Assembly (NCBI GenBank): GCA_016866785.1
Contig: VGLH01000035.1
Span: 1-33,510 of the forward strand
Direction of reading: 5' to 3'
DNA length: 33,510 nt
DNA from: Candidatus Poribacteria bacterium
GTDB lineage: Bacteria > Poribacteria > WGA-4E > GCA-2687025
A program made the position numbers and the translations under genes. Positions within the stretch are counted from its first letter, which is position 1, and each line of letters begins with the position of its first letter. The notes below the pieces were generated by a model. The model worked only from the letters and a program-made list of their open reading frames with translations. It was not told where the DNA came from and ran no database searches. Of the stretch, positions 5,474 to 33,406 are shown in pieces.

Positions 5474-6613
5474 ATGACAGCGAAGGCGGCGAGACCGGCG
5501 GCGGTGGCGCCGGAGAGTGACGACGCAGCAAAGAAGAAAGCCATCGAGCTCGCAGTGGCGCAGATCGAGAAGCAGTTCGGCAAGGGCACCATCATGAGCC
5601 TGACCGGCGACAACGTCCTGCCGGTGGAGGTGATCCCGACAGGCGCGTTGGCGCTCGATCTGGCGCTGGGCGTCGGCGGCGTGCCACGTGGTCGAGTCGT
5701 CGAGGTCTACGGTCCCGAGTCGTCGGGCAAGACGACGCTGTGCCTGCACATCCTTTCGGAGGCGCAGAAGCGCGGAGGCGTTGCCGCGTTTATCGACGCG
5801 GAGCATGCGTTCGACCGGTTCTGGGCGAAGAAGGTCGGCGTCGATCTCGACGCCCTGTTGTTCTCCCAGCCAGACGACGCGGAGCAGGCTCTGGAGATCG
5901 TCGAGACGCTGGTGCGAAGCGGCGCCGTGGACTGCATCGTGGTCGACTCTGTCGCGGCATTGGCTCCCCGCGTCGAGATCGCCGGCGAGATGGGCGATTC
6001 GCACGTTGGCGTCATCGCGCGGCTGATGTCGCAGGCATTGCGCAAGTTGACGGGTGTCATCAACAAGTCGCGGACGTGCGTCATCTTCATCAATCAGGTG
6101 CGCGAGAAGATCGGCGTGACGTACGGGAACCCGGAGACGACTCCCGGCGGGAGGGCGCTGAAGTTCCACGCCTCGATCCGCATGGAGATTCGACGCGGAG
6201 AGGCGCTGAAGGTCGGAACGGACACGGTCGGCTACCGGACGCGCGTCCGCATCATCAAGAACAAGGTGGCTCCGCCGTATACGCAGGCTGAATTCGACAT
6301 GGAGTTCGCCGGTGGCATCTCGCGCGAGGGCAGCATCCTCGACATCGCGTCCGACTACGGCATCGTGCAGAAGTCGGGTGCTTGGTTCTCGTATGGCGAG
6401 GAGCGACTGGGTCAAGGGCGCGAGAACGCCAAGGCGTATCTGCGGGACAACGCGGACATCGCGGCGCAGGTCGAAGCGAAGGTGCGCGAGTCGCTTACCG
6501 GGAGCGTCGTCGGCGCAGACCGCCCGTTGCCGGAAGACGCCGACGACGAGCTCGATCCTGATCTGGACGACGAACTCGGTGAGGTCGTCGAAGACCTGTC
6601 GGACGAGGTTTGA
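5474..6613 (+). CDS. recA: Recombinase RecA
   Basis: RecA is the ATP-dependent DNA strand-exchange protein and the co-protease for LexA-type repressors. The 379-residue product has the N-terminal oligomerisation helix ([14 protein letters not shown]), Walker A GPESSGKT at ~80-87, Walker [11 protein letters not shown], loop L1 ([21 protein letters not shown]), the RecA signature region around [13 protein letters not shown], and loop L2 ([15 protein letters not shown]). The sequence [12 protein letters not shown] resembles the Bacteroidetes-type variant of a motif usually read AEHALDP. The C-terminal tail, ~30 residues, is unusually rich in Asp/Glu, which in other RecAs moderates filament formation. 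Length is slightly above the common 345-355. GGAGAGG at 5462-5468 precedes the ATG. No LexA box was recognised upstream. Confidence 0.98.
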
Positions 6614-9475: not shown

Positions 9476-10333
9476 ATGAAGCGAATCGCCGTCGCGCTCG
9501 TCGCGCTTTCGGTCGCCATCGGTGCGCACGCCGATCAGGCTGCTGTCACCAAGAAGCTCGGGGAGTTCAAGGACCTCGTCGGCTACTGGACGCTCGACGG
9601 GAACCTGCAGGACTCCTCCGGTAACGCACATCACGGGAAGATCCAGGGAGACCCCGCCGCGTTCACGTGGGTCGAGGGCGTCAACGGAGGCAAGGCACTT
9701 CACGCCGACACCGCCCGTTTCGTGGGTTCCTACATCGACATCGCCGCGCCCATCGGCTCCAAGTTCGATTCCCCCAAGGCGAGCTGCGTCGTCTGGGCGA
9801 CGTTGGAGCCCAGGGCTGGCAACTACTGGCACTCCATCGTCGAGCGGAACAATCTGTGGTACGTCGAGACGGAAACCAAGCCCGCCGAATGGAAGGACAA
9901 CGCGGTCGTCGTGCGCCTGTACGACGTGGTTGCCGTCGGCGGCGGCGGGTCGGGTCAGATCCGCGACAACACGAACGTAACCGTCAAAGACGGCGTTTGG
10001 GCGCAGTACGGCTGGTCGTATGACGGATCGAAGATCCGCGTCTACCTGAACGGCACGAAGGTGCTGGAGGCAGCCTACGCCGGCGGGTTGGGCCCGACGA
10101 AAGACACTCCGAAGGCTCCTCCTGCCGACAAGGGCAAGAACTACAACCTGAGCATTGCCACGTGGCAGCAGCGCGACGACTGGTTCAAGGGAGCCATCGA
10201 CGCGTTCGCCTACATCACGGACGTGCTGACCGACGCGGACTTCAAGGCGCTGAATGACGCGATGAACGCCCCGCTTGCCGTCGAACCGAAGGGCAAGGCC
10301 GCCGCCGCATGGGGAGGGCTGAAGCAGCAGTAG
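9476..10333 (+). CDS. Secreted LamG-domain protein with conserved C-terminal tail
   Basis: The 285-residue product starts at ATG 9476, preceded by GAAGAGG. Residues 1-20 form a signal peptide (VALVALSVAIGAHA-D). A concanavalin-like LamG/Laminin_G_3 domain follows: LVGYWTLDGNLQDSSGNAHHG, then VWAQYGWSYDGSKIRVYLNGTKV, then WFKGAIDAFAYITDVLTDADF, which is the standard LamG ending. Such domains commonly bind glycans or adhesive ligands outside the cell. The last 17 residues, VEPKGKAAAAWGGLKQQ, match the tails of three other exported proteins here (genes at 15515, 30828 and 31661). A frame extension to 9383 was not used because it lacks a ribosome site and would bury the signal peptide. The ligand is not predictable. 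Confidence 0.9.
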   Translation: MKRIAVALVALSVAIGAHADQAAVTKKLGEFKDLVGYWTLDGNLQDSSGNAHHGKIQGDPAAFTWVEGVNGGKALHADTARFVGSYIDIAAPIGSKFDSPKASCVVWATLEPRAGNYWHSIVERNNLWYVETETKPAEWKDNAVVVRLYDVVAVGGGGSGQIRDNTNVTVKDGVWAQYGWSYDGSKIRVYLNGTKVLEAAYAGGLGPTKDTPKAPPADKGKNYNLSIATWQQRDDWFKGAIDAFAYITDVLTDADFKALNDAMNAPLAVEPKGKAAAAWGGLKQQ

Positions 10334-11809: not shown

Positions 11810-13216
11810 CTACGGCTGGGAGCCCGTCGCTGGACTCAGCCGGATGAAGACCGTCGTCTCGAGACGCTCGCGCAGTTCGCACGTGTGCTGACCGTCGTCG
11901 AAGCCGTCGGCGCGAAGCGTGATCCGGTACGTGCCCGTCGGGAGTCCGGTTACATGAGCCTCGGCGCAGGAGAATACCTCGCCCACGAGGCGGCCGTCCA
12001 GGAGCAACTTGATGCCGTCGGGAGGTCCGAAGGGCGACCAAACAACGACCAAGCGCGACGAGCCCGCTGAGCTCGGTGACAGCTCGAGGTCCGCGCGGAC
12101 CGACGGCGCGCGTAACTCCAGCGTGGATGCCTTGGCGAAGCCGACGAACTGTGCCTTGCCGGGAGCAGGACTCTCGCTGCGCCACGTCGCGACCTGGTAC
12201 TGCCCGTCCGGCAGGTTCCTCAGCACGAACTCTTGGGACCGCGTGTCTGTCTGACCCACCTGGTCGCGCCGGACCCCCGTCAGGCGTTGCGCGAGGATGC
12301 CACCCTTGGGTGGCAGATGCAGCAACGCGTCCAGCGGCAGCTCGTCTTGCGTGTGACGGACAGAGACCCACTGCCCCGGCTCCACGTGTGCCAACACGAG
12401 GTCTGCGGTGCCGGGCATGGATATGGGCAAAGGCTCCGAGTTGCCCGAGGACGGGACGGGACCGACGACGGACATCTCGGCGGCCGATCCAGCCGACACA
12501 TGGACGACCTGGCGACGTTCCGAGTCCGTGTCGAACCAGAAGGTCACCGCGTAGTCGCCCGGGAGCAGAGGCGGGGAGGTCAAGACAACAGCCCCAGACG
12601 CGCGGTCCGACACGCGCAGGACGCCCAGGGGCAAGGCACGGCCGTCGGAGCCGTCGTCGACGACCGCGACCAGCGCCGCTGACGGGACTCGGTCGGCGCG
12701 GACCCGAATGGTTCCAAGCGCTGATCCGACCACGCGGACGATCAACGACTGCACGACGATGCGGGCGTACTGCGACAGTTCGCGCCCGGCGGCACGGAAC
12801 CTCTGAACGTGCATGTCCGCGCGAGCATCGGGTTGGTAGAGCCGTACGGCGACGTCCGCGATACCAGGCGCTTCGCCCTCGGACTGGCGAAGAATCTGGG
12901 CGTAGATCACGAAGTCTGCGGGGGACTCGGACACGATCTGAGGAGTGTCCGCCTCGAGCGACGGTCCCTCGGTCGTCTTTACGCTTCCGTCGAACACGAT
13001 GTTGGGCTGCGTGGCGAGTTCGAGCGCCAGGGCAGCGCTCAGGTCCGTCGCGTATGCGTCGAACTCGGGTCGGAGGTCCGCCGGTACTGTGACGAACGCC
13101 GCAACGATAGGCGCATCGCGGGCTTCGAGCGCGTGCGTCGTGCCCGCCAGGATGGTCAGCGCAGCAGAACACGCGCATAGAGCGGCGAGCATCCGCCTCG
13201 GACTACGGGGAGCCAT
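11810..13216 (-). CDS. Secreted multi-domain beta protein of unknown function
   Basis: The 468-residue product begins with a signal peptide (LAALCACSAALTILAGTTHA). Residues ~35-165 alternate strand and helix with ADFVIYAQILRQ and VAVRLYQPDA, recalling the TolB-N/CsgG-type domains that build peptides from 'name plus variable' terms. The middle part carries several short beta modules (LLPGDYAVTFWFDTDSERRQVVHVSAG; LRNLPDGQYQVATW). The C-terminal ~80 residues resemble a PEGA/carboxypeptidase-regulatory repeat (DGIKLLLDGRLVGEV ... GLPTGTYRITLRADGF). Its start overlaps the end of the upstream lipoprotein gene by 14 bases, so the two are probably translationally coupled and act together at the cell envelope. 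No enzyme motif was seen. Confidence 0.82.
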   Translation of the reverse strand: MAPRSPRRMLAALCACSAALTILAGTTHALEARDAPIVAAFVTVPADLRPEFDAYATDLSAALALELATQPNIVFDGSVKTTEGPSLEADTPQIVSESPADFVIYAQILRQSEGEAPGIADVAVRLYQPDARADMHVQRFRAAGRELSQYARIVVQSLIVRVVGSALGTIRVRADRVPSAALVAVVDDGSDGRALPLGVLRVSDRASGAVVLTSPPLLPGDYAVTFWFDTDSERRQVVHVSAGSAAEMSVVGPVPSSGNSEPLPISMPGTADLVLAHVEPGQWVSVRHTQDELPLDALLHLPPKGGILAQRLTGVRRDQVGQTDTRSQEFVLRNLPDGQYQVATWRSESPAPGKAQFVGFAKASTLELRAPSVRADLELSPSSAGSSRLVVVWSPFGPPDGIKLLLDGRLVGEVFSCAEAHVTGLPTGTYRITLRADGFDDGQHTCELRERLETTVFIRLSPATGSQP

Positions 13217-15179
13217 TGGCGGCCGCTCCTGGCTGGGCGTTCTCGTCGTGCGCCGTCCACCGCCGTATCTCGCGCCCCGAGGCAGCGTCGATCACGCGGA
13301 ATGTCCATTGAACCGGCGTCGGGTTCTCCGGCGTCGCCGGTGACTCGAATGCGTATTCGAGCAGATGGGTCGCGCCCAGGGCACGAACGGCGGCGACGTA
13401 CGCCGCGTCGTCACTCGGCGCGGGCACGCGGTAGGTCGTCGCCATGGGTTCGACGACGGCGACGCCTGCGTCGGTAAGAGCCGATACGAGGCCGTCGTGC
13501 GCTTGGCTGAACGGCTGTATGGGCGCGGACCCGCTGGGCGACAGCCAGACGCGAGCATCGGGACCGAAGGCATCGATCCAGTCGGTTCCTGCTGCGGCGT
13601 CGCGCGCCAGGTCATGGAGTGATGGGTCGAGGTCCCCGGACAAGATGCGGTCCGGATCGATGAGATGTCCCGACCAACGGACGATTCCGTCCTGTGAGTC
13701 GACGAGCCGCATGTAGAGCCCATCAGGCTCCGAACGATACAGGAGCACCGACGTAGCCCCGGGAAGAGCGGCGCGAAGGGCGTTCCATGACGTGTACGCC
13801 AGCGGATCGCTGGGCGTACGGAGCATCGGGTAGAGCCAGCGCGGTTTCACCGTTGGCGCTCCGAGCTTCTCGACGACTGGCATGCGCGTCAGCACACCTG
13901 CTGTGACTGCCTCCTCGGCAATCTCGGTCTCCCAAGACTCGGCAGGCTCGCCGGGTTCATTGTCCACGCGCACTAGGAGAGTCGCCTCCGAGGCGGCCGC
14001 TTCGGGCAAGCCCTCGGCGAGCGAGCGAGTCTCCTCGAAGCGACGTTCCAGGAGATCGAGGGTCGCGAAAGCGTCGGAAGTCGGGTCCTCGGAGGTGAGC
14101 TCGATGGGCACCGAGTACGTCAGGAGCTTCGTGACGCCTTTGCCGACAACCAAATCCAAGTTGGGAGCCCACCGCAGCGGACTGGCTCCGAACGCCAGTT
14201 GCGCGAGCTCGTCTTCGCCCAGCAAGTCGCTGCGTTCGAGCGTGTCCACAACGGCAAAACCACGTCCTCGCAGCGTCGCAGAGAGGGCTCGACCGAAGGC
14301 TGCCGACGTTCGCGGATTGGCTGCTCGGGCGCGCGGGATCAGCCATAGCCGGTCAGACGAAGGCTGGATGAGGTGCAAAGGCAGAGCGTTCGTGACTCCG
14401 GGAGCGATGCTCTCCCAGATGAGCTCTGCCGGGGCGTCAGACATGCCCTTCAGGTCGACACCGACCGGTATGAGCCGAGAGTCGACGACCATGCCGGATC
14501 GCAGATCGACGAGTCGCGCCAGGATCACGGCACGGAACTGCGCGGCGAGCGCGCGGTAGTCGAGGGCGTCCGCCTGCCCGGCTCGCTCCTCCTGAGCCAT
14601 GCCGGCGAAGTTGACCAGCTCGACCAACGCTCGACCTTCGGCGTGTCGAGGCGCCTCGAACGTCAGCTCGGAAGACGACAGGCGAGACACCGAGGAGATG
14701 CGCGTGCCGTCGACATACACCTGTATCGTCGCGTCGAAGCCTGCGCCGCGGACTGTGACCGTCGTCCCTCCGTCCGGGGCTACACGCGCCGGTTCCACGG
14801 ACTCGACGCGGAGGGACGGCACGTATTCGAACGCGTCGGGCAGGCTGACGATGCGACGACCGGTGGTGACTCGGATGCTGACGCGCCCTGGGCGGCTGGG
14901 CGGCGCGAGGACGACCAGTTCGGCGTCTGTGGGCGTCGATGGGAAGACGCCGCGCACTTCCGCCGGGCGGTCTCCGAAGTAGACGGCGACGGGCGGCTGA
15001 ACTGGAATGCCTGCCAGCCGCATGCGGACCACGATGCCGCCTGCCTCTGTCGCGAAGCCGGGCACCAGCGGTCCTAGCCGCACCTGGGGCGCTGACGGCT
15101 CGATGATGATGGCGCTCTGTGGCGCGCATCCGATCAGGACGGTGGAGAGAATGAATGGCAGAACCGCGCGTGATCGCAT
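13203..15179 (-). CDS. IPT/TIG-domain lipoprotein with CsgG/TolB-like C-terminal part
   Basis: Counting from ATG 15179, the 658-residue product has a lipoprotein signal peptide (FILSTVLIGCAP, Cys at ~18). Two IPT/TIG immunoglobulin-like domains follow: residues ~30-120, and ~122-215 beginning VESVEPARVAPDGGTTVTVRGAGF. The rest is long and mixed; near the end GVAVVEPMATTYRV, AAVRALGATHLLEYAF and FRVIDAASGREIRRW follow the pattern of CsgG/LpoB-type periplasmic domains. A frame extension to 15260 adds an implausible N-terminus ahead of the signal peptide and was dropped. The ribosome site is weak. The gene lies 106 bases downstream of tRNA-Glu with no terminator seen, so it may be read from the tRNA promoter. 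Function is unknown; an envelope-bound scaffold is a reasonable guess. Confidence 0.85.
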   Translation of the reverse strand: MRSRAVLPFILSTVLIGCAPQSAIIIEPSAPQVRLGPLVPGFATEAGGIVVRMRLAGIPVQPPVAVYFGDRPAEVRGVFPSTPTDAELVVLAPPSRPGRVSIRVTTGRRIVSLPDAFEYVPSLRVESVEPARVAPDGGTTVTVRGAGFDATIQVYVDGTRISSVSRLSSSELTFEAPRHAEGRALVELVNFAGMAQEERAGQADALDYRALAAQFRAVILARLVDLRSGMVVDSRLIPVGVDLKGMSDAPAELIWESIAPGVTNALPLHLIQPSSDRLWLIPRARAANPRTSAAFGRALSATLRGRGFAVVDTLERSDLLGEDELAQLAFGASPLRWAPNLDLVVGKGVTKLLTYSVPIELTSEDPTSDAFATLDLLERRFEETRSLAEGLPEAAASEATLLVRVDNEPGEPAESWETEIAEEAVTAGVLTRMPVVEKLGAPTVKPRWLYPMLRTPSDPLAYTSWNALRAALPGATSVLLYRSEPDGLYMRLVDSQDGIVRWSGHLIDPDRILSGDLDPSLHDLARDAAAGTDWIDAFGPDARVWLSPSGSAPIQPFSQAHDGLVSALTDAGVAVVEPMATTYRVPAPSDDAAYVAAVRALGATHLLEYAFESPATPENPTPVQWTFRVIDAASGREIRRWTAHDENAQPGAAANGSP

Positions 15180-15514: not shown

Positions 15515-16237
15515 TTACCACTCGGACCTGAGCGCTCCCCACACAGTCGCGGCTTTGCCGGTCGGCTCGACGGGCGAGGCGTTCAGGAGCGCCTTGACCT
15601 CGGCGTCCTTCGGCGAATCCGCTGGGTCGAGTTTGCCGTAGTTGCGGACGATCACCGCATCGAACAGCGGAGCATTGGGCAGCGCGTCCGCCTCGCGCAC
15701 GCCGACGCGCAGGTAGTTGACGCCGACGGTTAGGATCGGGTCCACGGCTCCGTCGTTGCCGGTCAACTGGTTCTGCCAGTACCACTTGTTCGTGCCGTTC
15801 ATGCCGTCATCGTTGACGCGGTTGGCATTGGACATCGGGCTGGGTTTCCACGCCTTTCCGTCCGTCCCAAACTGCCAATAGAAGGAGTTGCGGTCGGTCG
15901 GGACCCGCATATGGAACCAGACCTGCCACTTCTTGCCGTCAGCCGTCGACTCGCCTGCCTTGACATTGACCGGCAGCTTGTAGATGAGGAAGGGCCCGTC
16001 TTCGAGCTGCGCGCCGAAGTCGTTGTCACCGGGCCCGGAGAGCGCGGTCCCTAGAAGCGATGTTGCGTCCTTGACCTCGACCCACTTGTTGCCCTTGACA
16101 TCGACGTTGAATTGGCTGGCTCCCTTGTCGAACCAGGTGGCGTGCACACCGATCATCTGGTCGGCGACCGCAGATGCTGTCACAACCACCAGTCCGAGCC
16201 CGACCGTGAAGAGCAACGATGCAAAGCGTACGCGCAT
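15515..16237 (-). CDS. Secreted carbohydrate-binding-like beta protein with conserved C-terminal tail
   Basis: The 240-residue product has a signal peptide (LLFTVGLGLVVVTASAVA-D). The body is a single beta-sandwich-like domain without a LamG pattern. Near its end, YLRVGVREADALPNAPLFD followed by AVIVRN echoes the terminal strand pair of galactose-binding/CBM domains (L-x-V-x-x-RE...D-x-I-x-x-x-N). The last 18 residues, VEPTGKAATVWGALRSEW, match the tails of the LamG proteins ending at 10333, 30828 and 31661, so the tail is shared by proteins with different ectodomains. A GGAG site lies about ten bases before the ATG. A strong hairpin follows the stop. The ligand is unknown, but a sugar-binding surface protein is plausible. 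Confidence 0.85.
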   Translation of the reverse strand: MRVRFASLLFTVGLGLVVVTASAVADQMIGVHATWFDKGASQFNVDVKGNKWVEVKDATSLLGTALSGPGDNDFGAQLEDGPFLIYKLPVNVKAGESTADGKKWQVWFHMRVPTDRNSFYWQFGTDGKAWKPSPMSNANRVNDDGMNGTNKWYWQNQLTGNDGAVDPILTVGVNYLRVGVREADALPNAPLFDAVIVRNYGKLDPADSPKDAEVKALLNASPVEPTGKAATVWGALRSEW

Positions 16238-16575: not shown

Positions 16576-17634
16576 CTAGTCGATCTCGATAGGAACGTTC
16601 CCGTTGCGGTGCGACTCGCTGATCGCCAGATCGATCTGGCGGTCGATCCGCCCGTTGACCGCGCCGTACTCCGGCGGCACGCCCTCTCGCACCGAGCGCA
16701 TGATGCTTCCGAGCTGGCACGCGATGGTCACGAGCCCGTCGTTCAGCGGGTAGTCGCGGAACGGGTTCTCCCAGACGATCTCCGGGTCCGTGTCGGCGAC
16801 GAGTCGGTCGAGCGTCTCGACGCCCTTTGCCGTACACACCACTCGACGGATGTCGATCGGACGCCTCTCCGTCTCGCTGGCGAGTACAAAGAGCTGGTCG
16901 CCGACCGCCATTCCCTTCTCGCCGTAGAACTCGGTCGACGAGATGCCGCGCAGCGGCGACCCGAATGCCAGGCTCGTGAAGTGCGAGAACCCCAGCGCTC
17001 CGCCCTCGAAGAAGAAGATGGCGTGCCGCGACCGCTCGGCGTCGGTCCGCGTGCCTCGGTAGTCATGCGGTTGAACCGTGAAGGGAGCTTCGATGCCGAC
17101 GACGCGCCGGATGGGAACGTCGAACCCGATGTAGCTCCGCACCAGGCTCACCGCATGGTAGTTGTGTGTGCGGCTGTTGTTGTGACCCCGCAGCACGCGC
17201 CCGAACACGCCGTCTAGGATCAACTCGCGTTTGATGCGTTCCGACGGAGCCCGGTAGAGGTTCTCGGCGACTTCGAGGTGCGCTCCTGTCTCCGCAGCCA
17301 AGGCGATCAGCCGATCGGCATCCTCCAACGCCGACGCCACCGGCGTCTCGGTGACTACGCTGATGCCTCGCTCCAGGGCGGCTCCGGCGACGACGTGCGT
17401 CTGCGGCGGACTCACGATGACGGCGACGAAGTCGGGCTTCGTCTTATCGAGCATCGCTTCGACCGAATGGAACCACGGCGCGCGGTACCGGTTCGCCTGC
17501 TCCTCGCCGCGCGGCGCACCCGTGTTGCACACCGCCACCAGCTCGAGCTGGTCGGTGAGCGCGTCGATTGTGGGCAGCCAGGCTCCTGTAGCCCGGCGAC
17601 CCGCGCCGACCACTGCGACCCTGAGCCGATCCAT
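16576..17634 (-). CDS. Gfo/Idh/MocA-family oxidoreductase-like protein lacking the usual EKP lysine
   Basis: The 352-residue product has an N-terminal Rossmann fold (LRVAVVGAGRRATGAW) and a C-terminal alpha/beta dehydrogenase domain, as in NAD(P)-dependent sugar or cyclitol dehydrogenases. The conserved E-K-P motif, whose Lys assists catalysis, reads TETPVAS here (Glu ~96, Thr ~97, Pro ~98). This substitution occurs in some divergent members and may mean altered chemistry or a non-catalytic role. AAGGAG six bases before ATG 17634 fixes the start; the frame continues upstream to 18162 only as Arg-rich noise. It lies 188 bases downstream of the GH38-like gene on the same strand, suggesting a joint role in handling a carbohydrate. 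Confidence 0.9.
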   Translation of the reverse strand: MDRLRVAVVGAGRRATGAWLPTIDALTDQLELVAVCNTGAPRGEEQANRYRAPWFHSVEAMLDKTKPDFVAVIVSPPQTHVVAGAALERGISVVTETPVASALEDADRLIALAAETGAHLEVAENLYRAPSERIKRELILDGVFGRVLRGHNNSRTHNYHAVSLVRSYIGFDVPIRRVVGIEAPFTVQPHDYRGTRTDAERSRHAIFFFEGGALGFSHFTSLAFGSPLRGISSTEFYGEKGMAVGDQLFVLASETERRPIDIRRVVCTAKGVETLDRLVADTDPEIVWENPFRDYPLNDGLVTIACQLGSIMRSVREGVPPEYGAVNGRIDRQIDLAISESHRNGNVPIEID

Positions 17635-17822: not shown

Positions 17823-20390
17823 TCAGGTGATGCGGAGCGTCACGTTCGCGTCGGGCTCCACATGGAGGATGATGCGGTCGCCTATGACGGGAACCGGGGC
17901 CCCGTCGAGCTCCAAGGGCGACGTGGCGTTCGCGCCGCCGATTCTGGGCAGCTCGATGGACGCGACGGTCGAGCATCCACGAGTTTCGCGCAGCGACACG
18001 ATGTATCCGTTGCCGTCCTCCGCTCGCTTGAAGCCGGTCAGCGCGACGCCGGACGGCTCGACGCGGATCAGTGACGCGGAATCGTTGGGCAGTATGCCGC
18101 CCGCGTGAGTAGACAACTGGCGGGCGATCACATCCGTCGACGCCTCGCTGGCGAATCGCCATGCCGCCGCCGCGTCGAAATCGCCGGAGTGGCAGGTCAG
18201 TCGGTATCGGAGCGTCACGACGCCGGACTGGCTCGCCGGGAAGTTCGTGTTCCAGTAGTTACCCATCGCCCACGAGAAGAGCGTCGCGCTCTTAGGAACG
18301 AACTCGCGCTGCCACCGACCGGTGTTGATCCGTCCGAACTGGGCGAGCGGCGCGTCGGGCGTAGCCACGGTGACGCCGAATCCGCTGCTCGAGAAATCCA
18401 CGTAGCCCTGGACGGTGTGCCAGTCGTGGCAACTCCCGCGGAGCGTGTCGTGTCCTACCCGGACCGGGCCCGACGTGGAGTCGTAGCGCGCCGTGCAGCC
18501 GGGCACGAAGAACGGGAACACCACGTAGACCGACTCAGGGTCGGTGACGGCGAGTTTGTCGATGGTCAGCGTCACGTCGATCCACGGCAAGTGCTCGTGG
18601 AGCGTCACTTCCTGAGTGACTCGTCGGCATCCGTCGGCGGCGAGCTCGGAGACGATGCTCGCGGCGAGGGGCGACTGCCGTCCGCTGCGCACATGAGCGG
18701 CGACGGGGCTCGTGCGGACGAACGGCGTGCTGGATCGCGTCCGTCCGCCGCCGTTGCCGCCCGTGGGCTGCGAATCGTAGAGCGCGTCGCGCCCTTGCTC
18801 GTCGGATATCCGCTCGTAGAGGTACTGGCAGAGCCCGTATTCGCTGCGTTCGTCGAGCAACTCGCGGCTGAGCGTCTTGGAGAACCAGCTACGGACGACT
18901 CCCGTGGTCGAATCGACGACGATCCGGTGGTATCGATTCTCGAGTGTGGTTCCCTCTGTCCTCAGCGCGGAGTCGGGGAATGACGTCGGCGTGCCCCATC
19001 GGTAGACCTTGTAGCCCATTGGGGGGATATCCCGCGCGACGAACGAAATGCCCTGATCGGTGATCCACTTGGGAACCGGGACGCCCTCGCTGAGATCGAC
19101 GAGACCCAGCGAGGTGTCCAAGCCTCGACGGGAGACCTGAACGTAGGCGTCTCGTTCCCACGACAGCGGGTTGCAGACCAGGATGGCGTCCTCGGTCGCT
19201 GGGACGTACTCGATCAGTGTGTCGCAAGCTGCCGTGAGGGCGTCGGCGGCGATGTTCGCCGCTCGGAAGGTGAACCCGGCTTTGGCGTTCCACTGGGTCC
19301 GCGAAGCGAACGAATGGGGGAAATCGACGCTTTCTTCCGCGCCCCAGGTGTGTTCGTCGAACAGCGCGAGGTTCCAGTAAGCCTCGCGGAGATCCTCGGC
19401 GGGATACGGAGTGTCCGGCTCGACCATCGACAAGCCGGCTGAGACGCGCTCCGCCGTGTCGGCAACGATATGGGCCCGTCGCTGGACGGCGGTTTCATAG
19501 GCGGCGCTGGCGAGCCCGTCCGCCGCCCAGTCGCACCAGTCGCCTCGCATCGTCTCGAGGCTCGCGCCGTAGCGTTCCTCGATGTGCTCGAAGAGCGTCG
19601 ATACCAGCGCCAGCTCCATCCGGGGCAGCGTGTCCGGAGCCCGGTCGTTCCAGTCTCGAACGAACGCCGGCAGCGAGTCGTCGACACCCTCGTTGCAGTC
19701 CGCGCCGACGCCAGGCACGCGGAGCGCGACGAAGTCGTACGGATACTCGTGCTGGGACAGCCGGTCGAGGTATTCCGCGACCAGCTCTTGCGCGGTGTCG
19801 GTATCTCCGCCGATGCCGATCCGGCGTGCGTCTCCGGAGTCGGCGGCGTTCCACACCAGGAGACGATCCCCGGTCTTCAATTCCCACCACGCTGCCTGCG
19901 AGCGGGGCATCGGGGACGCCGCCCTGTCGCCGGGAGACTGGACGAACAGGTACGGCACGGAGCAACCGGTCAGCAGGTCGATCAGGCAGGACGCGATGCC
20001 CGTGACGCCGAGTGCCATCGCCGCGCGCACGGAGATACCACGCTGGCGCAACTCGCCGACGGGCTGCAGGTAGTGCGCGAGGGATGATGGCGTGGTCAAC
20101 GAGCTCAGGTGGAAGGGCATCGCGGTGACTTCGACGCGCCCTTCGTGAGCCAGGTGCGTCCAGGCGTCGGCGAACTCGCTGTCGAGGTTCGCCAGGGCGT
20201 ATTGGAGTGGACCCGTCGCGTCGCATGTCCAACGCATGCGCGCGGCTTCGGGCATGGACTCCGACTTCTGACATGCCGCGATGACATCCTGGAACGTTCG
20301 GCAGTGGGAGCGGAAGACGGTCTCTTGGTACGCCGTATAGCCAATCCGTGTGTAGCCGGAGTGGATGAGCAGGATTCGTGAGACACCCAT
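17823..20390 (-). CDS. GH38-like (alpha-mannosidase family) protein with degenerate active site
   Basis: The ~855-residue product follows the GH38 N-terminal layout: LLIHSGYTRIGYT at residues ~7-19, RWTCDATGPLQYAL, a TAMPFHLSS strand, YPYDFVALRV, a GDWCDWAADGLASAAYE segment, and DEHTWGAEES with His ~347, then a long beta-rich C-terminal half. GH38 enzymes normally coordinate zinc through H-x-D in HTDIGYT; here the aligned residues are Tyr and Arg. The nucleophile region (usually Asp before G-Y/G-I) reads AMALGVTGIAS. Of the expected metal ligands only the HTWG His is clearly kept. The protein may have lost glycosidase activity or use another mechanism. No signal peptide is seen. The ATG at 20390 is preferred over 20456 because homologues begin just before this strand, but neither has a good ribosome site. 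Confidence 0.82.
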   Translation of the reverse strand: MGVSRILLIHSGYTRIGYTAYQETVFRSHCRTFQDVIAACQKSESMPEAARMRWTCDATGPLQYALANLDSEFADAWTHLAHEGRVEVTAMPFHLSSLTTPSSLAHYLQPVGELRQRGISVRAAMALGVTGIASCLIDLLTGCSVPYLFVQSPGDRAASPMPRSQAAWWELKTGDRLLVWNAADSGDARRIGIGGDTDTAQELVAEYLDRLSQHEYPYDFVALRVPGVGADCNEGVDDSLPAFVRDWNDRAPDTLPRMELALVSTLFEHIEERYGASLETMRGDWCDWAADGLASAAYETAVQRRAHIVADTAERVSAGLSMVEPDTPYPAEDLREAYWNLALFDEHTWGAEESVDFPHSFASRTQWNAKAGFTFRAANIAADALTAACDTLIEYVPATEDAILVCNPLSWERDAYVQVSRRGLDTSLGLVDLSEGVPVPKWITDQGISFVARDIPPMGYKVYRWGTPTSFPDSALRTEGTTLENRYHRIVVDSTTGVVRSWFSKTLSRELLDERSEYGLCQYLYERISDEQGRDALYDSQPTGGNGGGRTRSSTPFVRTSPVAAHVRSGRQSPLAASIVSELAADGCRRVTQEVTLHEHLPWIDVTLTIDKLAVTDPESVYVVFPFFVPGCTARYDSTSGPVRVGHDTLRGSCHDWHTVQGYVDFSSSGFGVTVATPDAPLAQFGRINTGRWQREFVPKSATLFSWAMGNYWNTNFPASQSGVVTLRYRLTCHSGDFDAAAAWRFASEASTDVIARQLSTHAGGILPNDSASLIRVEPSGVALTGFKRAEDGNGYIVSLRETRGCSTVASIELPRIGGANATSPLELDGAPVPVIGDRIILHVEPDANVTLRIT

Positions 20391-21704: not shown

Positions 21705-23543
21705 ATGACCCAACGGCTGGAGGTCGTCAACGAGGTCACGATCCGTTTCGCCGGGGACTCCGGCGACGGAATGCAGATCACCGGCGACCAGTTCACCAAT
21801 ACGTCTGCACTGGTCGGGAACGATCTGAGCACGCTGCCGGACTTTCCGGCAGAGATCCGAGCGCCCGCCGGCACACTCGCCGGCGTGAGCAGCTTCCAGG
21901 TTCACTTCAGCAGCTTCGATATCCACACCCCGGGCGATAGTCTCGACGTGCTGGTCGCGATGAATCCCGCTGCGCTCAAGGTGAACCTCGGGTTCGTCAA
22001 GCCGAACGGTATCATCATCGCGAACACGGCTCAGTTCGTCTCGAAGAACCTGAGACTCGCGGGCTATGCCGAGGATCCGCTGCAAGACGGGAGCCTGGCG
22101 TCTTACCAGGTGTTCCCTGTCAACATCACGGAGTTGACCGCCCACGCCTTGGCGGATATCCCCGACCTGACGGCGCGCGAGATCGAGCGGTGCAAGAACT
22201 TCTTCGCGCTGGGGATCGTCTTCTGGCTCTTCCATCGCCCGATGGAGCACACGATCCGGTGGATCGAGGACTACTTCACGAAGCGCAGGCGACCGAAGTA
22301 CGTCGCCGCCAACGTTTCCGCCCTCAAAGGCGGCGCAGCGTTCGCAGAGGCGACCGAGCTGTTCGCCACGACCTACGAGGTCCGTCCCGCGCCGCTACAG
22401 GCAGGGCTCTACCGGAACCTGACCGGCAACACCGGCTTGGCTCTGGGACTGCTCGCGGCGGCGACGCGATCCGGTCTCCAGCTCTTCTACGCCGGCTATC
22501 CGATCACCCCGGCGAGTGCCATCCTTCACGATCTGTCGGGTTACAAGAGATTCGGCGTACGGACGTTCCAGGCGGAGGACGAGATCGCCGCTGCGGGCGC
22601 TGCTTTGGGCGCTGCCTACGGCGGGGCGCTCGCCGTGACGGGAACCAGCGGTCCCGGCATCGCGCTCAAGCAGGAGACGATCAGCCTGGCGGTGAGCGTC
22701 GAGCTACCCATGGTCATCTGCAACGTGCAGCGAGGCGGGCCCAGCACGGGTCTGCCGACCAAGACGGAGCAATCGGACCTGTTCCAGGCGATTGTGGGCA
22801 GACACGGCGAAGCGCCGCTTCCGGTCATCGCCGCTTCACGTCCCTCCGACTGCTTCGACGCGGCGTTCGAAGCGTGTCGCGTCGCCATCAAGTACATGAC
22901 GCCGGTCATTCTCTTGTCCGACGGCTACATCGGGCAAGGATCGGAGCCGTGGCGCATCCCATCGGTGCCGGATCTGCCGAAAATCGATGTGCCGGAACGT
23001 CCCGCAGCGGAGGGGTTCGCTCCGTACCTACGCGACCCGGATACGTACGCGCGACCGTGGGCGGTTCCCGGTTCCCCAGGGCTGGAGCATCGTGTCGGCG
23101 GGCTGGAGAAGTCAGACGTCAACGGACACGTGAGCTATGCCCCGGATAACCACGAGACGATGACGCTCAACCGCTCCAAGAAGGTCGCGTTGGTGGCTCG
23201 TGAGATGCCGCCCCTCGAAGTTCACGGCGACCCGGACGGCGGCAAGCTGCTGGTGCTTGGGTGGGGCAGCACCTATGGAGCGATTCGCACGGCGGTCGAG
23301 CGGTGTCGCGAGGCTGGGCAGTCGGTGTCTCGCGCGCATCTTCGCTGGCTGAACCCGCTGCCGGAGGACCTCGGTGACACGCTTGCCAAATTCGAGCGCG
23401 TTCTGATCCCCGAACTCAACCTGGGGCAACTGCTCACCTTCGTGCGGGCGAAGTACCTGATCCCGGCGATTGGCTTGCACAAGGTCCAGGGCGTGCCATT
23501 CACCGCCTCGGAGATCCAATCGGCAATCGAGGAACTCCTGTAG
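21705..23543 (+). CDS. korA: 2-oxoacid:ferredoxin oxidoreductase, fused gamma-alpha subunit
   Basis: With KorB this enzyme interconverts a 2-oxoacid (typically 2-oxoglutarate) plus CoA with the acyl-CoA, CO2 and reduced ferredoxin. The 612-residue product joins a gamma domain (~1-190: IRFAGDSGDGMQITGDQF, LPDFPAEIRAPAGTLAG) to an alpha domain (~230-612: YAGYPITPASAILHDL, FQAEDEIAAAGAALGAAYGG, TSGPGIALKQETISLAV, RGGPSTGLPTKTEQSDL). This two-subunit form without a separate ferredoxin-domain subunit is the KorAB type known from Mycobacterium, Thermus and Hydrogenobacter-like enzymes. GAAGAGG precedes the ATG. Substrate is inferred; other 2-oxoacids are possible. Confidence 0.95.
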   Translation: MTQRLEVVNEVTIRFAGDSGDGMQITGDQFTNTSALVGNDLSTLPDFPAEIRAPAGTLAGVSSFQVHFSSFDIHTPGDSLDVLVAMNPAALKVNLGFVKPNGIIIANTAQFVSKNLRLAGYAEDPLQDGSLASYQVFPVNITELTAHALADIPDLTAREIERCKNFFALGIVFWLFHRPMEHTIRWIEDYFTKRRRPKYVAANVSALKGGAAFAEATELFATTYEVRPAPLQAGLYRNLTGNTGLALGLLAAATRSGLQLFYAGYPITPASAILHDLSGYKRFGVRTFQAEDEIAAAGAALGAAYGGALAVTGTSGPGIALKQETISLAVSVELPMVICNVQRGGPSTGLPTKTEQSDLFQAIVGRHGEAPLPVIAASRPSDCFDAAFEACRVAIKYMTPVILLSDGYIGQGSEPWRIPSVPDLPKIDVPERPAAEGFAPYLRDPDTYARPWAVPGSPGLEHRVGGLEKSDVNGHVSYAPDNHETMTLNRSKKVALVAREMPPLEVHGDPDGGKLLVLGWGSTYGAIRTAVERCREAGQSVSRAHLRWLNPLPEDLGDTLAKFERVLIPELNLGQLLTFVRAKYLIPAIGLHKVQGVPFTASEIQSAIEELL

Positions 23544-23591
23544 GTCGGGCGCGTCCGGGGCTTGGCACGAAGGCAACCAGAGGAACTGACG

Positions 23592-24638
23592 ATGCGATCC
23601 GCAGTTGCGAGCGCCGGTCCGGCGCTGACTCGAGACGACTTCCAGAGCGACCAGGACGTGCGTTGGTGTCCGGGCTGCGGCGACTACTCGATTCTCGCTC
23701 AGGTGCAGCGCGTTCTGCCGGAACTGGGAGTGCCGAAAGAGAACATCGTGTTCATCTCCGGGATCGGCTGCTCGAGTCGCTTCCCCTACTACATGAACAC
23801 GTTTGGGTTCCACACGATTCACGGTCGCGCGCCTGCGATCGCCACGGGTCTCAAGCTGGCGCGCCCTGAGCTGGATGTGTGGGTCGTCACCGGCGACGGC
23901 GACGCGTTGAGCATCGGCGGCAATCACTTCGTCCACCTGTTGCGGCGGAACCTGGACATCCGCGTTCTGCTGTTCAACAACCAGATCTACGGGCTGACAA
24001 AGGGTCAGTACTCGCCGACATCCGAGCAGGGGAAGGTGACCTACTCGTCGCCGATGGGCTCCATCGAGACGCCGTTCAACCCGATGCGCGTCGCGTTGGG
24101 CGCGAACGCCTCTTTGGTCGCCCGGTCGCTCGACCGCGATACGAAGCACTTGCAGATGGTGCTCAAGCGCGCCCACGAGCACCAAGGCACGGCGTTCGTC
24201 GAGATCTATCAAGACTGCATCGTGTTCAACAAGGACACGTTCGCCCCCCTGACCGACCGCGAGACGAAGGACGACAACGTCCTCTACCTGGAACACGGCG
24301 AGCCGATGGTGTTCGGCAAGGAGCGCGACAAGGGCATCCGCCTGGACGGGCTTCAGCCGCGGGTGATTTCGTTGACGGATGGGCAGCATTCGGTCGCGGA
24401 CCTGCTGATTCACGACGAGCACGACCGCTACGGGACGCTGTCGGACATCCTGGCGACGTTCCAAGAACGCGTTGGTTTCCCCCGACCGGTGGGCATCGTC
24501 CGCAATATCGAGCGCGTGTGCTACGAGGATGTGATGCTCGAGCAGATCGACAAGGCGATGGCTCGATCAGGACCGGGCGACCTGGCTGCTCTGCTGGCGG
24601 AGGGGGACACATGGACGGTGGGGCCCAACGGGTCCTGA
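23592..24638 (+). CDS. korB: 2-oxoacid:ferredoxin oxidoreductase, beta subunit
   Basis: KorB binds thiamine diphosphate and a 4Fe-4S cluster. In this 348-residue protein the cluster Cys are visible as WCPGC (26 and 29), GIGCSS (60) and YQDC (209). The TPP motif runs from GDGDALSIGGNH (~101-112) to FNNQIYGLTKGQ (NN ~129-130). The ATG at 23592 has GAGGAA seven bases upstream; an in-frame TTG at 23562 is less likely. The gap from korA is 48 bases, so the pair is one transcript. The stop is 18 bases from the convergent AEC-transporter stop, and a small CTGGT/ACCAG stem (24650-24663) lies across that boundary. Confidence 0.96.
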   Translation: MRSAVASAGPALTRDDFQSDQDVRWCPGCGDYSILAQVQRVLPELGVPKENIVFISGIGCSSRFPYYMNTFGFHTIHGRAPAIATGLKLARPELDVWVVTGDGDALSIGGNHFVHLLRRNLDIRVLLFNNQIYGLTKGQYSPTSEQGKVTYSSPMGSIETPFNPMRVALGANASLVARSLDRDTKHLQMVLKRAHEHQGTAFVEIYQDCIVFNKDTFAPLTDRETKDDNVLYLEHGEPMVFGKERDKGIRLDGLQPRVISLTDGQHSVADLLIHDEHDRYGTLSDILATFQERVGFPRPVGIVRNIERVCYEDVMLEQIDKAMARSGPGDLAALLAEGDTWTVGPNGS

Positions 24639-30827: not shown

Positions 30828-31595
30828 TTAGCGCAGGACGTCGCTCTTGATGGTTCCCCACATGAGGGTCGCGCGGTCGCGCGGCTCGACGGCGGTCGTG
30901 ATGCCCGTCATCGCCTTGGCGACTTCGGCGTCTGTCAAAGCGCGATTGTACATCGCCATCTCGTCGTAGCTGCCGACGGTCCAGCGAACCGTGCCGCCGC
31001 GCGCTCCGATGAAGAGGGGACCCGTGTTCGTCCCAAGCGTCCCGACACAGTCGCGCTGACCCACGACCTTGCCATCGACGTAGATCTTGATGACCTTGCC
31101 GTCGAAGCTCGCCGCGATGTGGTGCCACGTCCCATCCAGGACCCCACCAGCTTCACCTTCGTCATCGCAGTTCTCCGGCAAGCCGAAGATCTGGAGCATG
31201 ACCTTGTTGCCGTAGTCGGGCAGCAGGTTGTACTCGCCAGCCTGCCACGACGGGCCCTTCTCGATAGCGCTCTGGTGGTCGCCTGTATCGGCGGCGATCT
31301 TGCACCAGGTCATCAGGGTCATCGACTGCAGGTTCAGCGAGGCGTTGTGCGCCACCTCGAGGTGGGCATTGGCGACCAGGTCGATGCCCTGCCCGTACTT
31401 GCCAGCGCCTCGGACCGCCTTGCCCTTGAGCATGGCGTCGTTGCCCTTGCCGCTCGAGTCGACAGCCTTCTCTCCGCTGCCCTCAAAGGAGAGCAGCATG
31501 ATGAGCGATGGGTCCGCCGCCGCATATGCCGAGACGCCATAAGACATCGCCACGCCTACCGCTCCTGCAAGGAGCCAGCGCGCGTTTCGTGCCAT
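30828..31595 (-). CDS. Secreted LamG-domain protein with conserved C-terminal tail
   Basis: The 255-residue product has a signal peptide (LLAGAVGVAMSYGVSAYA) and a LamG/Laminin_G_3 domain: LLSFEGSGEKAVDSSGKGND at the start, then GTWHHIAASFDGKVIKIYVDG, then VGSYDEMAMYNRALTDAEV, the usual final strand and turn. Two Cys (in LPENCDDE and QRDCVG) are shared in position with its neighbour and probably form a disulfide. The C-terminus reads VEPRDRATLMWGTIK plus five residues, matching the tail found on three other exported proteins in the window. AGGAGG precedes the ATG. It lies 65 bases downstream of a close paralogue; GCCCC/GGGGC (31617-31631) forms a small stem between them. Confidence 0.93.
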   Translation of the reverse strand: MARNARWLLAGAVGVAMSYGVSAYAAADPSLIMLLSFEGSGEKAVDSSGKGNDAMLKGKAVRGAGKYGQGIDLVANAHLEVAHNASLNLQSMTLMTWCKIAADTGDHQSAIEKGPSWQAGEYNLLPDYGNKVMLQIFGLPENCDDEGEAGGVLDGTWHHIAASFDGKVIKIYVDGKVVGQRDCVGTLGTNTGPLFIGARGGTVRWTVGSYDEMAMYNRALTDAEVAKAMTGITTAVEPRDRATLMWGTIKSDVLR

Positions 31596-31660: not shown

Positions 31661-32425
31661 CTAGCGGTCCTTGAGCGCCGCCCACATGACCGTCGCGCGA
31701 TGGCGCGGATCGACGGCGAGATTGACAGGAATCTCCTCCATCGCCGTACGAATCTCCGCCTTCGTCAGCGCGCGGTTGTAGATCTTCATATCATCGTAGA
31801 ACCCGACGGTCCACCGCCCGCTTCCGCCGCGCGCGCCGATGTAGAGGGGCCCGTTGTTCGTCTGGAGCTTGCCTTCGCAGGGCCCGCCACCGACTTCGCT
31901 GCCGTCCACGTAGACCGTGATGCGCTTCAGATCGAACGTGCCGGTGATGTGGTGCCACTTGGTGTCGGTCACCGTGCCAGCCTGGAGCTCGTCGTTGCAG
32001 TTGTCCGGCAGGTCGAAGATCTGGAGCAGGACGTTGCCGCCGTAGACGGGCAGCAGGTTGTACTCGCCCTGCGCCCATGCGGGGCCCTTCTCGATGCCGC
32101 TCTGGTTGTCGCCCGTGAGTTCGGTGATTCGGACCCACGTCATGAGCGACATGGCTTGCAGGTTCAGCGAGTCGTGGTGCGGCACTTCGGCGTGGGCGTT
32201 CAGACCGAGGGCGAGCCCAGAGCCGTACTTGCCCTCGCCGAACTTCGCCTTGCCCATGAGCGTGGCGCTGTTCTTGCCAGCAGGACTGAGGTCCTTGGCG
32301 GTCTTGCCGCCGTCTTCGAAGTTCAGATACATGACCAACGAGGGGTCTTGGGCGGACGCCGTGAGGGCGGCAGCGGCGATCGCCAGGCATGACAGGAGCA
32401 CAACAGGTCGGAGTCGGCGCATCAC
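31661..32425 (-). CDS. Secreted LamG-domain protein, tandem paralogue
   Basis: The 254-residue product has a signal peptide (VVLLSCLAIAAAALTASA-Q) and a LamG domain similar to its neighbour throughout (for example SLNLQAMSLMTW, GIEKGPAWAQGEYNLLP, WTVGFYDDMKIYNRALT). Cys residues in LPDNCNDE and GGPCEG match those of the neighbouring paralogue. The C-terminus VDPRHRATVMWAALKDR carries the common tail. AAGGAGG five bases before the ATG is the strongest ribosome site in this part of the window, suggesting high expression. A weak -10-like TATAGA (minus strand, 32484-32479) lies upstream. These are surface or periplasmic binding proteins by analogy; the ligand is unknown. Confidence 0.93.
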   Translation of the reverse strand: MMRRLRPVVLLSCLAIAAAALTASAQDPSLVMYLNFEDGGKTAKDLSPAGKNSATLMGKAKFGEGKYGSGLALGLNAHAEVPHHDSLNLQAMSLMTWVRITELTGDNQSGIEKGPAWAQGEYNLLPVYGGNVLLQIFDLPDNCNDELQAGTVTDTKWHHITGTFDLKRITVYVDGSEVGGGPCEGKLQTNNGPLYIGARGGSGRWTVGFYDDMKIYNRALTKAEIRTAMEEIPVNLAVDPRHRATVMWAALKDR

Positions 32426-32708
32426 GACCTCCTTAGCGGGATGCAGGCGCCACGAATGGCGGCATAGGCGATGCGTGGTCTATACAACGGAAATGGGCAG
32501 GCATTGCGGTCGGCGGATGCGGACCAACGCCACCCATGCACCTCGAGCGACTCTCGAACGGATCGCCACACTGCGCCAGGGTTTGGGCAACGCAGCGTGC
32601 CATATCTTAGGCGACACGTCGGACAGCGTCAAGGCAAACTGCATCTGCCAGCCTGCGGGCTCCGTGATAACCGGCTCCGCGGTGGCGCGCGTCCGACTGC
32701 CCGAGCGC

Positions 32709-32737
32709 TTCCGTGTCCACTGGAGCTCGGGTACAAT
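32709..32737 (+). promoter_or_regulatory. Possible promoter of the nitroreductase gene
   Basis: TACAAT (32732-32737) is a good -10 box; the -35 candidate TTCCGT (32709-32714, 17-base spacer) is weak. The rest of the 360-base divergent gap 32426-32785 shows no gene or clear repeat. Confidence 0.35.
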
Positions 32738-32785
32738 ACGCCTATCGACGGTCGAACACCGAGCCCGCGGAGAGGACGCTGCCGC

Positions 32786-33406
32786 ATGAGCAAGACCGCC
32801 GCCTCCGACCACCCGATCCATGACTTGATCGCCGAGCGATGGAGTCCGAGGGCGTTTACCGAGCGGCCCATCCCGGACGAAGTCGTGCGCAGCCTTCTCG
32901 AAGCCGCGCGTTGGGCTCCCTCATCGCTCAACGAGCAGCCTTGGGCGTTCCTGATCGGCATACGCGGTAGAGACGACGAGCATGAGCGTATCGCGTCGTG
33001 TCTGTCCGAGGGGAATCGCCGTTGGGCCCCCAAGGCTCCTGTCCTGATGGTCGCCGTCGCACGGCTTCATCGGGCGCGAGACGGTCACTCGAACCGCCAC
33101 GCCCACTACGACACGGGCGGAGCGGTCGCGGGCTTGACGCTCCAGGCGACGGCGAGCGGTCTCTACGTGCACCAAATGGGCGGCTTCGACCGCGACCGAG
33201 TTCGCGATCTCTACGCTGTCCCCGAAGACTGCGACCCGATGGTCGCCGTGGCTGTAGGCTACCTCGACGAGCCGTCCTCTCTGCCTGAGGATTTCCGGGA
33301 TCGGGAGCTCGCTGCGCGCGTCCGAAATTCCTTGACTCACTTCGTGTTCGAGGGCAGATGGGGCTCGACATCGACTCTCGTGACGCCTTCGAAAGGAAGC
33401 GAATGA
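32786..33406 (+). CDS. Nitroreductase-family FMN protein
   Basis: The 206-residue product follows the nitroreductase fold: an N-terminal RWSPRAFTERPIPDEVVRSL with the FMN-binding Arg-Ser/Arg-x-Phe pattern, then AARWAPSSLNEQPWAFLIG, which lines the flavin site. The middle GGAVAGLTLQATASGLYVHQMGGF is the usual dimer-interface helix, and VAVAVGYLDEP the C-terminal strand. Members use FMN and NAD(P)H to reduce nitro compounds, quinones or flavins; the natural substrate is often unknown. ATG 32786 follows GGAGAGGA at nine bases. The frame upstream to 32471 is not supported by a ribosome site. The stop overlaps the next start as ATGA. Confidence 0.92.
   Translation: MSKTAASDHPIHDLIAERWSPRAFTERPIPDEVVRSLLEAARWAPSSLNEQPWAFLIGIRGRDDEHERIASCLSEGNRRWAPKAPVLMVAVARLHRARDGHSNRHAHYDTGGAVAGLTLQATASGLYVHQMGGFDRDRVRDLYAVPEDCDPMVAVAVGYLDEPSSLPEDFRDRELAARVRNSLTHFVFEGRWGSTSTLVTPSKGSE

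Follow-up and report, generated by a model that had tools for sequence, protein, structure and literature searches.

The window, a stretch of 33,510 bases that makes up one whole contig (C35) of a 4.35-Mb poribacterial genome assembled in 291 contigs, encodes four proteins that begin with a clear Sec-type signal peptide and share a C-terminal tail (Table 1). These genes lie at three separate loci, and both the signal peptides and the tails are encoded as the sequence-only reading had described them. Three of the four proteins match the Pfam family LamG (PF13385), while P0002 has no match in Pfam and its single-sequence fold model is unreliable (pLDDT 40). P0003 and P0004 are encoded by tandem neighbours and are 55% identical. 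A fold search with P0003 returned solely generic ConA/LamG-like jelly rolls, and the best relatives of this protein in named genomes come from Candidatus Poribacteria MAGs and have the same protein ending, for example VSPSDKVTTTWADIKKHP and VKPADKLTTTWGNIKAQ, which places the window in this phylum. Poribacteria are an uncultured phylum that dominates in sponges.

Other genes of the window are ordinary neighbours, namely those for a GH38-like mannosidase, a Gfo/Idh/MocA dehydrogenase, subunits of a 2-oxoacid:ferredoxin oxidoreductase, and recA. Adjoining the P0002 gene is a pair of genes (13203-15179 and 11810-13192, both on the minus strand) for tail-less, likely exported or lipoprotein products: one has an IPT/TIG domain and an N-terminus resembling a lipobox, the other is carboxypeptidase-regulatory-like.

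Table 1. Tail-bearing genes and other features, with positions in the window unless a locus is named
Feature	Position	Strand	Remarks
LamG protein P0001, tail-bearing, 285 aa	9476..10333	+	N-terminal Sec signal peptide; PF13385
P0001 C-terminal tail VEPKGKAAAAWGGLKQQ and stop	10280..10333	+	tail profile E=1.5e-9
Tail-bearing protein P0002, 240 aa	15515..16237	-	signal peptide; no Pfam match, not LamG
P0002 C-terminal tail VEPTGKAATVWGALRSEW and stop	15515..15571	-	
LamG protein P0003, tail-bearing, 255 aa	30828..31595	-	signal peptide; PF13385
P0003 C-terminal tail VEPRDRATLMWGTIKSDVLR and stop	30828..30890	-	
LamG protein P0004, tail-bearing, 253 aa	31661..32422	-	signal peptide; PF13385
P0004 C-terminal tail VDPRHRATVMWAALKDR and stop	31661..31714	-	
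Ordinary neighbour genes	17823-20390; 16576-17634; 21705-24638; 5474-6613	-; -; +; +	
Divergent SprA/Sov translocon	L120:257-5278	+	same genome as the window, contig C144
Divergent SprA/Sov translocon	L121:2892-9404	+	

A tryptophan-centred tail on exported proteins

The tail is about 15-18 residues long, is centred on a tryptophan and follows, at the stop codon, the consensus V-[ED]-P-x-G-K-[LA]-[AT]-T-T-W-[GA]-x-[LIM]-K. When genes were called from 1.2 Mb of the genome to which the window belongs and scored with a 15-column score matrix, 27 of the 1029 genes ended in the tail. The corresponding matches are without exception found 1-23 residues before the stop, with 26 proteins at 30.6-43.5 bits and a weaker relative (L044) at 23.9 bits; two more C-terminal matches (L017, 25.6 bits, and L042, 24.3 bits) were dropped by eye as unrelated. 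The best internal match among the 1029 proteins reached 10.8 bits and shuffled proteins yielded one window above 12 bits, and because of this clean gap in scores the tail is beyond chance. All nine matches in a hold-out of 389 kb outside the training sequence were likewise C-terminal. A six-frame search of 2.29 Mb returned 154 strong matches, of which 117 were C-terminal (at most 13 residues from the stop), one lay 23 residues from the stop, one ran off a contig end, and 35 preceded the C-terminal domain (CTD) of the type IX secretion system (T9SS); none was found at any other site.

As the sequence-only reading predicted, tail matches are enriched at the C-termini of proteins with signal peptides. 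Signal peptides, called by a heuristic of our own and not by SignalP, with start sites movable for all genes alike, were found for 26 of the 27 tail genes against 332 of the 1002 others (p=1e-11) in the genome of the window, and for 14 of 15 against 108 of 275 in another genome (G084). The tryptophan is invariant in all 114 terminal tails and is also present in 34 of 34 motif-matching gene ends from three unbiased samples in which its position was left free. Between LamG relatives that are just 20-30% identical, V, W and K are unchanged. Two degenerate tails of Poribacteria SP142 that lack the G-K pair, VDLDSTKFPVFWANMKKR and VNFQSSSLPVYWGKLKKE (L081:40-792 and 816-1631), show that the most persistent core is W-x-x-[LM]-K.

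C-terminal sorting tags are already known, but this tail lies outside the known families: we found no curated family that covers it, no NCBIfam model describing it among the 25 commonest matches, and no paper describing it in the open-access literature. With the T9SS type A CTD (TIGR04183/PF18962) it shares its place as a module at the C-terminus of Sec-exported proteins that vary in their ectodomains, its many copies per genome and its occurrence in the same phylum, and in composite proteins it directly precedes that domain. However, the type A CTD is an Ig-like beta-sandwich of about 70-90 residues with motifs B, D and E and an ending of the type ..RKMxILK, whereas the much shorter, W-centred tail has none of these motifs and does not belong to the class; PF18962 is absent from the 25 commonest families of the 79 tail bearers considered below. 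Prevotella intermedia has shortened C-terminal signals alongside long ones in one organism, but its short CTDs comprise 40-51 residues and keep motifs B, D and E, and have been interpreted as the long CTD reduced to three strands (PMC11969387). PEP-CTERM, GlyGly-CTERM and MYXO-CTERM are also lineage-restricted C-terminal tags on many exported proteins, but they combine a motif with a transmembrane helix and a basic cluster, whereas the tails contain no hydrophobic segment. With LPxTG sortase signals the tail has in common the idea of a C-terminal sorting motif, but it has no LPxTG, no transmembrane segment and no basic cluster. An exosortase system for the tail was rejected as well: strong exosortase genes were detected in just three of 83 Poribacteria genomes (G016:C414, G014:C677, G003:C421) and are absent in the other 80.

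That the tag is modular and carried by exported proteins whose ectodomains vary is well supported, with 55 Pfam families represented among 79 tail-bearing proteins. LamG was found in 37 of them, and about half have no LamG match; other families include CBM_4_9 (4 proteins), PD40 propeller (3), NPCBM, F5/8C, LDL receptor b and DUF4960 (2 each) and Kelch (1), and some bearers have unassigned ectodomains. Most of these ectodomains are of a sugar- or glycan-binding, surface type. AlphaFold2 models the LamG fold of P0003 as finishing close to residue 232, with a pLDDT below 50 for the tail (residues 233-255). As it is also present on non-LamG proteins, the tail does not belong to the LamG fold, in agreement with the sequence-only reading; the LamG Pfam matches of the window proteins end before it, too. 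An amphipathic-helix docking peptide was considered and rejected: the model places a helix at residues 241-253, but again with a pLDDT below 50, and the hydrophobic moment is 0.28 at 100 degrees and 0.38 at 170 degrees, compared with 0.30 for shuffled sequences in both cases.

Tandem arrays of paralogous LamG proteins account for many of the bearers, as would be expected if the tail reflected shared ancestry only, being the C-terminal part of LamG or the remnant of a lost CTD with no function of its own. That explanation is highly improbable in view of the bearers that lack LamG, the end of the predicted fold before the tail, the invariant tryptophan, and the persistence of V, W and K while the rest of the protein diverges. 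A CTD remnant was found within 420 bases downstream in none of 114 tail genes, a result that also speaks against a lost CTD and led us to reject truncated CTD genes and stop-codon read-through.

Genome searches with a profile of 26 tails (A1) gave matches in all 85 Poribacteria genomes, from 31 to at least 99 in each at E<=0.1, and 90-150 matches in each of four named genomes of the phylum. None of 149 Planctomycetota genomes had a match at 1e-3, and eight named genomes from outside Poribacteria that encode similar LamG proteins yielded one match in all (E=0.026). Among 115 genomes from the phylum of a Roseibacillus MAG, one genome had four tail matches; because all four are on a single 16.7-kb contig (G292:C7, loci L230-L232), which encodes at least two LamG-like proteins, this is probably a misbinned poribacterial contig or a case of horizontal transfer. 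The tail can thus be used as a searchable signature for probable surface proteins, most of which can at present be recognised only by a LamG domain or go unassigned; each genome has from about 30 to more than 150 of them.

Coupling of the tail motif to the type IX C-terminal domain

In the first composite, from G084, the motif lies 91 residues before the protein end and is followed by YPNPFNPETW..., the start of a T9SS CTD. A composite query revealed more than 150 such proteins across the phylum among the matches listed. In all 39 scored CTD proteins the motif lysine precedes YPNP by exactly 7 residues, while in 102 of 116 CTD-less proteins the stop follows 1-4 residues after this lysine, where the CTD would begin; nearly all tail-only proteins end 0-8 residues past the motif. 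Under a looser, anchored definition, the element is present in 61 of 79 CTD proteins from loci picked for it. In unbiased samples 1 of 13 CTD proteins was a composite, and no clear composite was found in the genome of the window (best E 6e-8), both of which count against an attachment role linked to T9SS.

These observations modify two claims of the sequence-only reading. The motif is confined to the C-termini of exported proteins with the exception of internal copies, which occur only directly before a T9SS CTD. The tail does look unlike the type IX CTD, but its supposed lack of relation to the type IX signal needs correction because the two are physically coupled at a fixed spacing.

Composites carry ectodomains (WD40, FG-GAP, ASPIC/UnbV, PhoX, GSDH) that differ from those of most tail-only proteins. 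Hence the element is a module in both classes, and the composites are not simple fusions of a LamG protein with a CTD. Positions 6 and 10 distinguish the terminal from the pre-CTD form. The tryptophan that is invariant in terminal tails is found in 22 of 61 pre-CTD copies, and position 6 is hydrophobic in 111 of 114 terminal tails and Q, K or R in most pre-CTD copies. Given these systematic differences, the two forms may not be doing the same job, and there is room for a tag that works in a T9SS-independent pathway, for example by docking to a periplasmic or outer-membrane scaffold, with the pre-CTD likeness going back to old fusions of tail proteins with CTDs. The absence of composites from the genome sample of the window and of any general linkage between tail genes and sprA would agree with such a pathway. 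We nevertheless judge it improbable, as it would have to accommodate the distinct ectodomains of the composites, the fixed 7-residue spacing and the restriction of internal motifs to the site before the CTD.

In tail-less CTD proteins (L185, L186, L131, L144), the CTD is often preceded by a dockerin-like segment (VDVSDI..AY...), as if this segment and the tail were two alternative pre-CTD modules.

Type IX secretion genes in Poribacteria

Kamke et al. (2014) described TIGR04183 domains from Poribacteria in a single-cell study, in which structural genes of the Por system were not found and the route of secretion was left undecided (PMC3909097). No later report of T9SS genes from this phylum was found in the open-access literature. 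We identified SprA (PF14349) in 77 of 83 Poribacteria genomes, usually as a single match in a frame of typically about 2,150-2,300 residues. Against TIGR04189, SprA from G022 scores 143 bits (E=6e-42) and that from the genome of the window 130 bits (E=7e-38), both below the curated cut-off of 200 bits. PorV (PF19572) was detected in 82 of the 83 genomes, in 78 of them above the cut-off, and C25 peptidases (PF01364, the PorU family; candidates for a PorU-type sortase) also in 82; all 83 encode T9SS CTDs. The genome of the window has SprA on contig C144, C25 on C22 and PorV on C10. Because SprA, PorV, C25 and the CTD are encoded in nearly all genomes, Poribacteria are likely, as judged from sequence, to have a divergent T9SS. 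The motor protein GldM (GldM_1st, PF12081) was detected in two of 59 genomes, both times below the cut-off, which counts against T9SS-linked attachment.

A possible role at the mature C-terminus

In type IX secretion, PorU cleaves the CTD off in the preceding linker and the cargo is attached at its new C-terminus (PMC4560394; PMC11969387). Since cleavage occurs before the CTD, the element would be the terminal segment of mature proteins of either class: in long cargo, a C25 (PorU-like) sortase would remove the CTD and leave the element behind. A putative surface or T9SS-associated receptor might then hold the protein at the cell surface by binding V, W and the two lysines of the element, and the simplest guess for the short, CTD-less proteins is that they would cross the outer membrane by the same T9SS. 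With such a role in surface attachment or retention, one idea would explain both locations of the motif. We tentatively propose, with a probability of about 0.45, that the tail is an undescribed phylum-wide C-terminal sorting or attachment element of the surface-protein pathway of Poribacteria, coupled to a divergent T9SS; we assign it to this pathway because the same tag sits exactly before the type IX signal in other proteins. As for the earlier suggestion of a modular signal read by an export or attachment machinery, the modular tag stands, and that a machinery recognises it is what we infer. The cleavage preference of P. gingivalis, X/(GSA)(VLI), fits 21 of 61 composite linkers; this counts against the attachment role, and the linker was rejected as a match to the cleavage consensus.

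A more surprising and less likely reading is that the tail is a candidate minimal T9SS export signal, which would replace the CTD of about 80 residues and send small proteins across the outer membrane. After Sec export, the translocon or a PorV-like shuttle would recognise the tail in the periplasm; beside a CTD, the tail would be redundant and free to drift. This would account for a tryptophan that is invariant in stand-alone tails and relaxed beside the CTD, for the excess of tail-only over CTD proteins in the genome sample of the window (27 vs 7) and for the surface-type glycan-binding ectodomains, and the short signals of Prevotella intermedia offer a precedent (PMC11969387). However, the tail lacks motifs B, D and E, by which CTDs bind PorV, and corresponds in position to the cleavage linker and not to the shuttle-binding region, so that we regard this reading as unlikely. 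Somewhat more doubtful still is its full form, in which a peptide of about 15 residues would by itself, without the 80-residue CTD by which all known T9SS cargo is defined, be the export signal of a divergent T9SS that lacks the known GldM motor, and the most abundant secretion tag of the phylum.

Under the preferred reading of a T9SS-coupled attachment element, the tail ties probable surface proteins to a secretion system whose divergent SprA, PorV and C25 components occur in nearly every Poribacteria genome. Whether a 15-residue tail replaces the T9SS CTD or only accompanies it has thereby become a testable question.

Tail genes are not enriched near sprA, with 9 in 389 kb compared with 13 in 400 kb of background. 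At six loci (L213, L220, L223, L228, L229, L123), a gene for a tail protein (VEA-x-x-KL-x-V-x-W...) closely precedes sprA, with both on the same strand; its presence there in several genomes of genus g20 is one ancestral arrangement and not a general enrichment. The 38-kb contig G000:C22 carries a C25 peptidase (12088-13188) within a 2309-aa frame and a weak PorV-like gene (32577-33182), as well as at least four tail genes (5735, 26564, 27362, 28367), a possible clustering of C25, PorV-like and tail genes.
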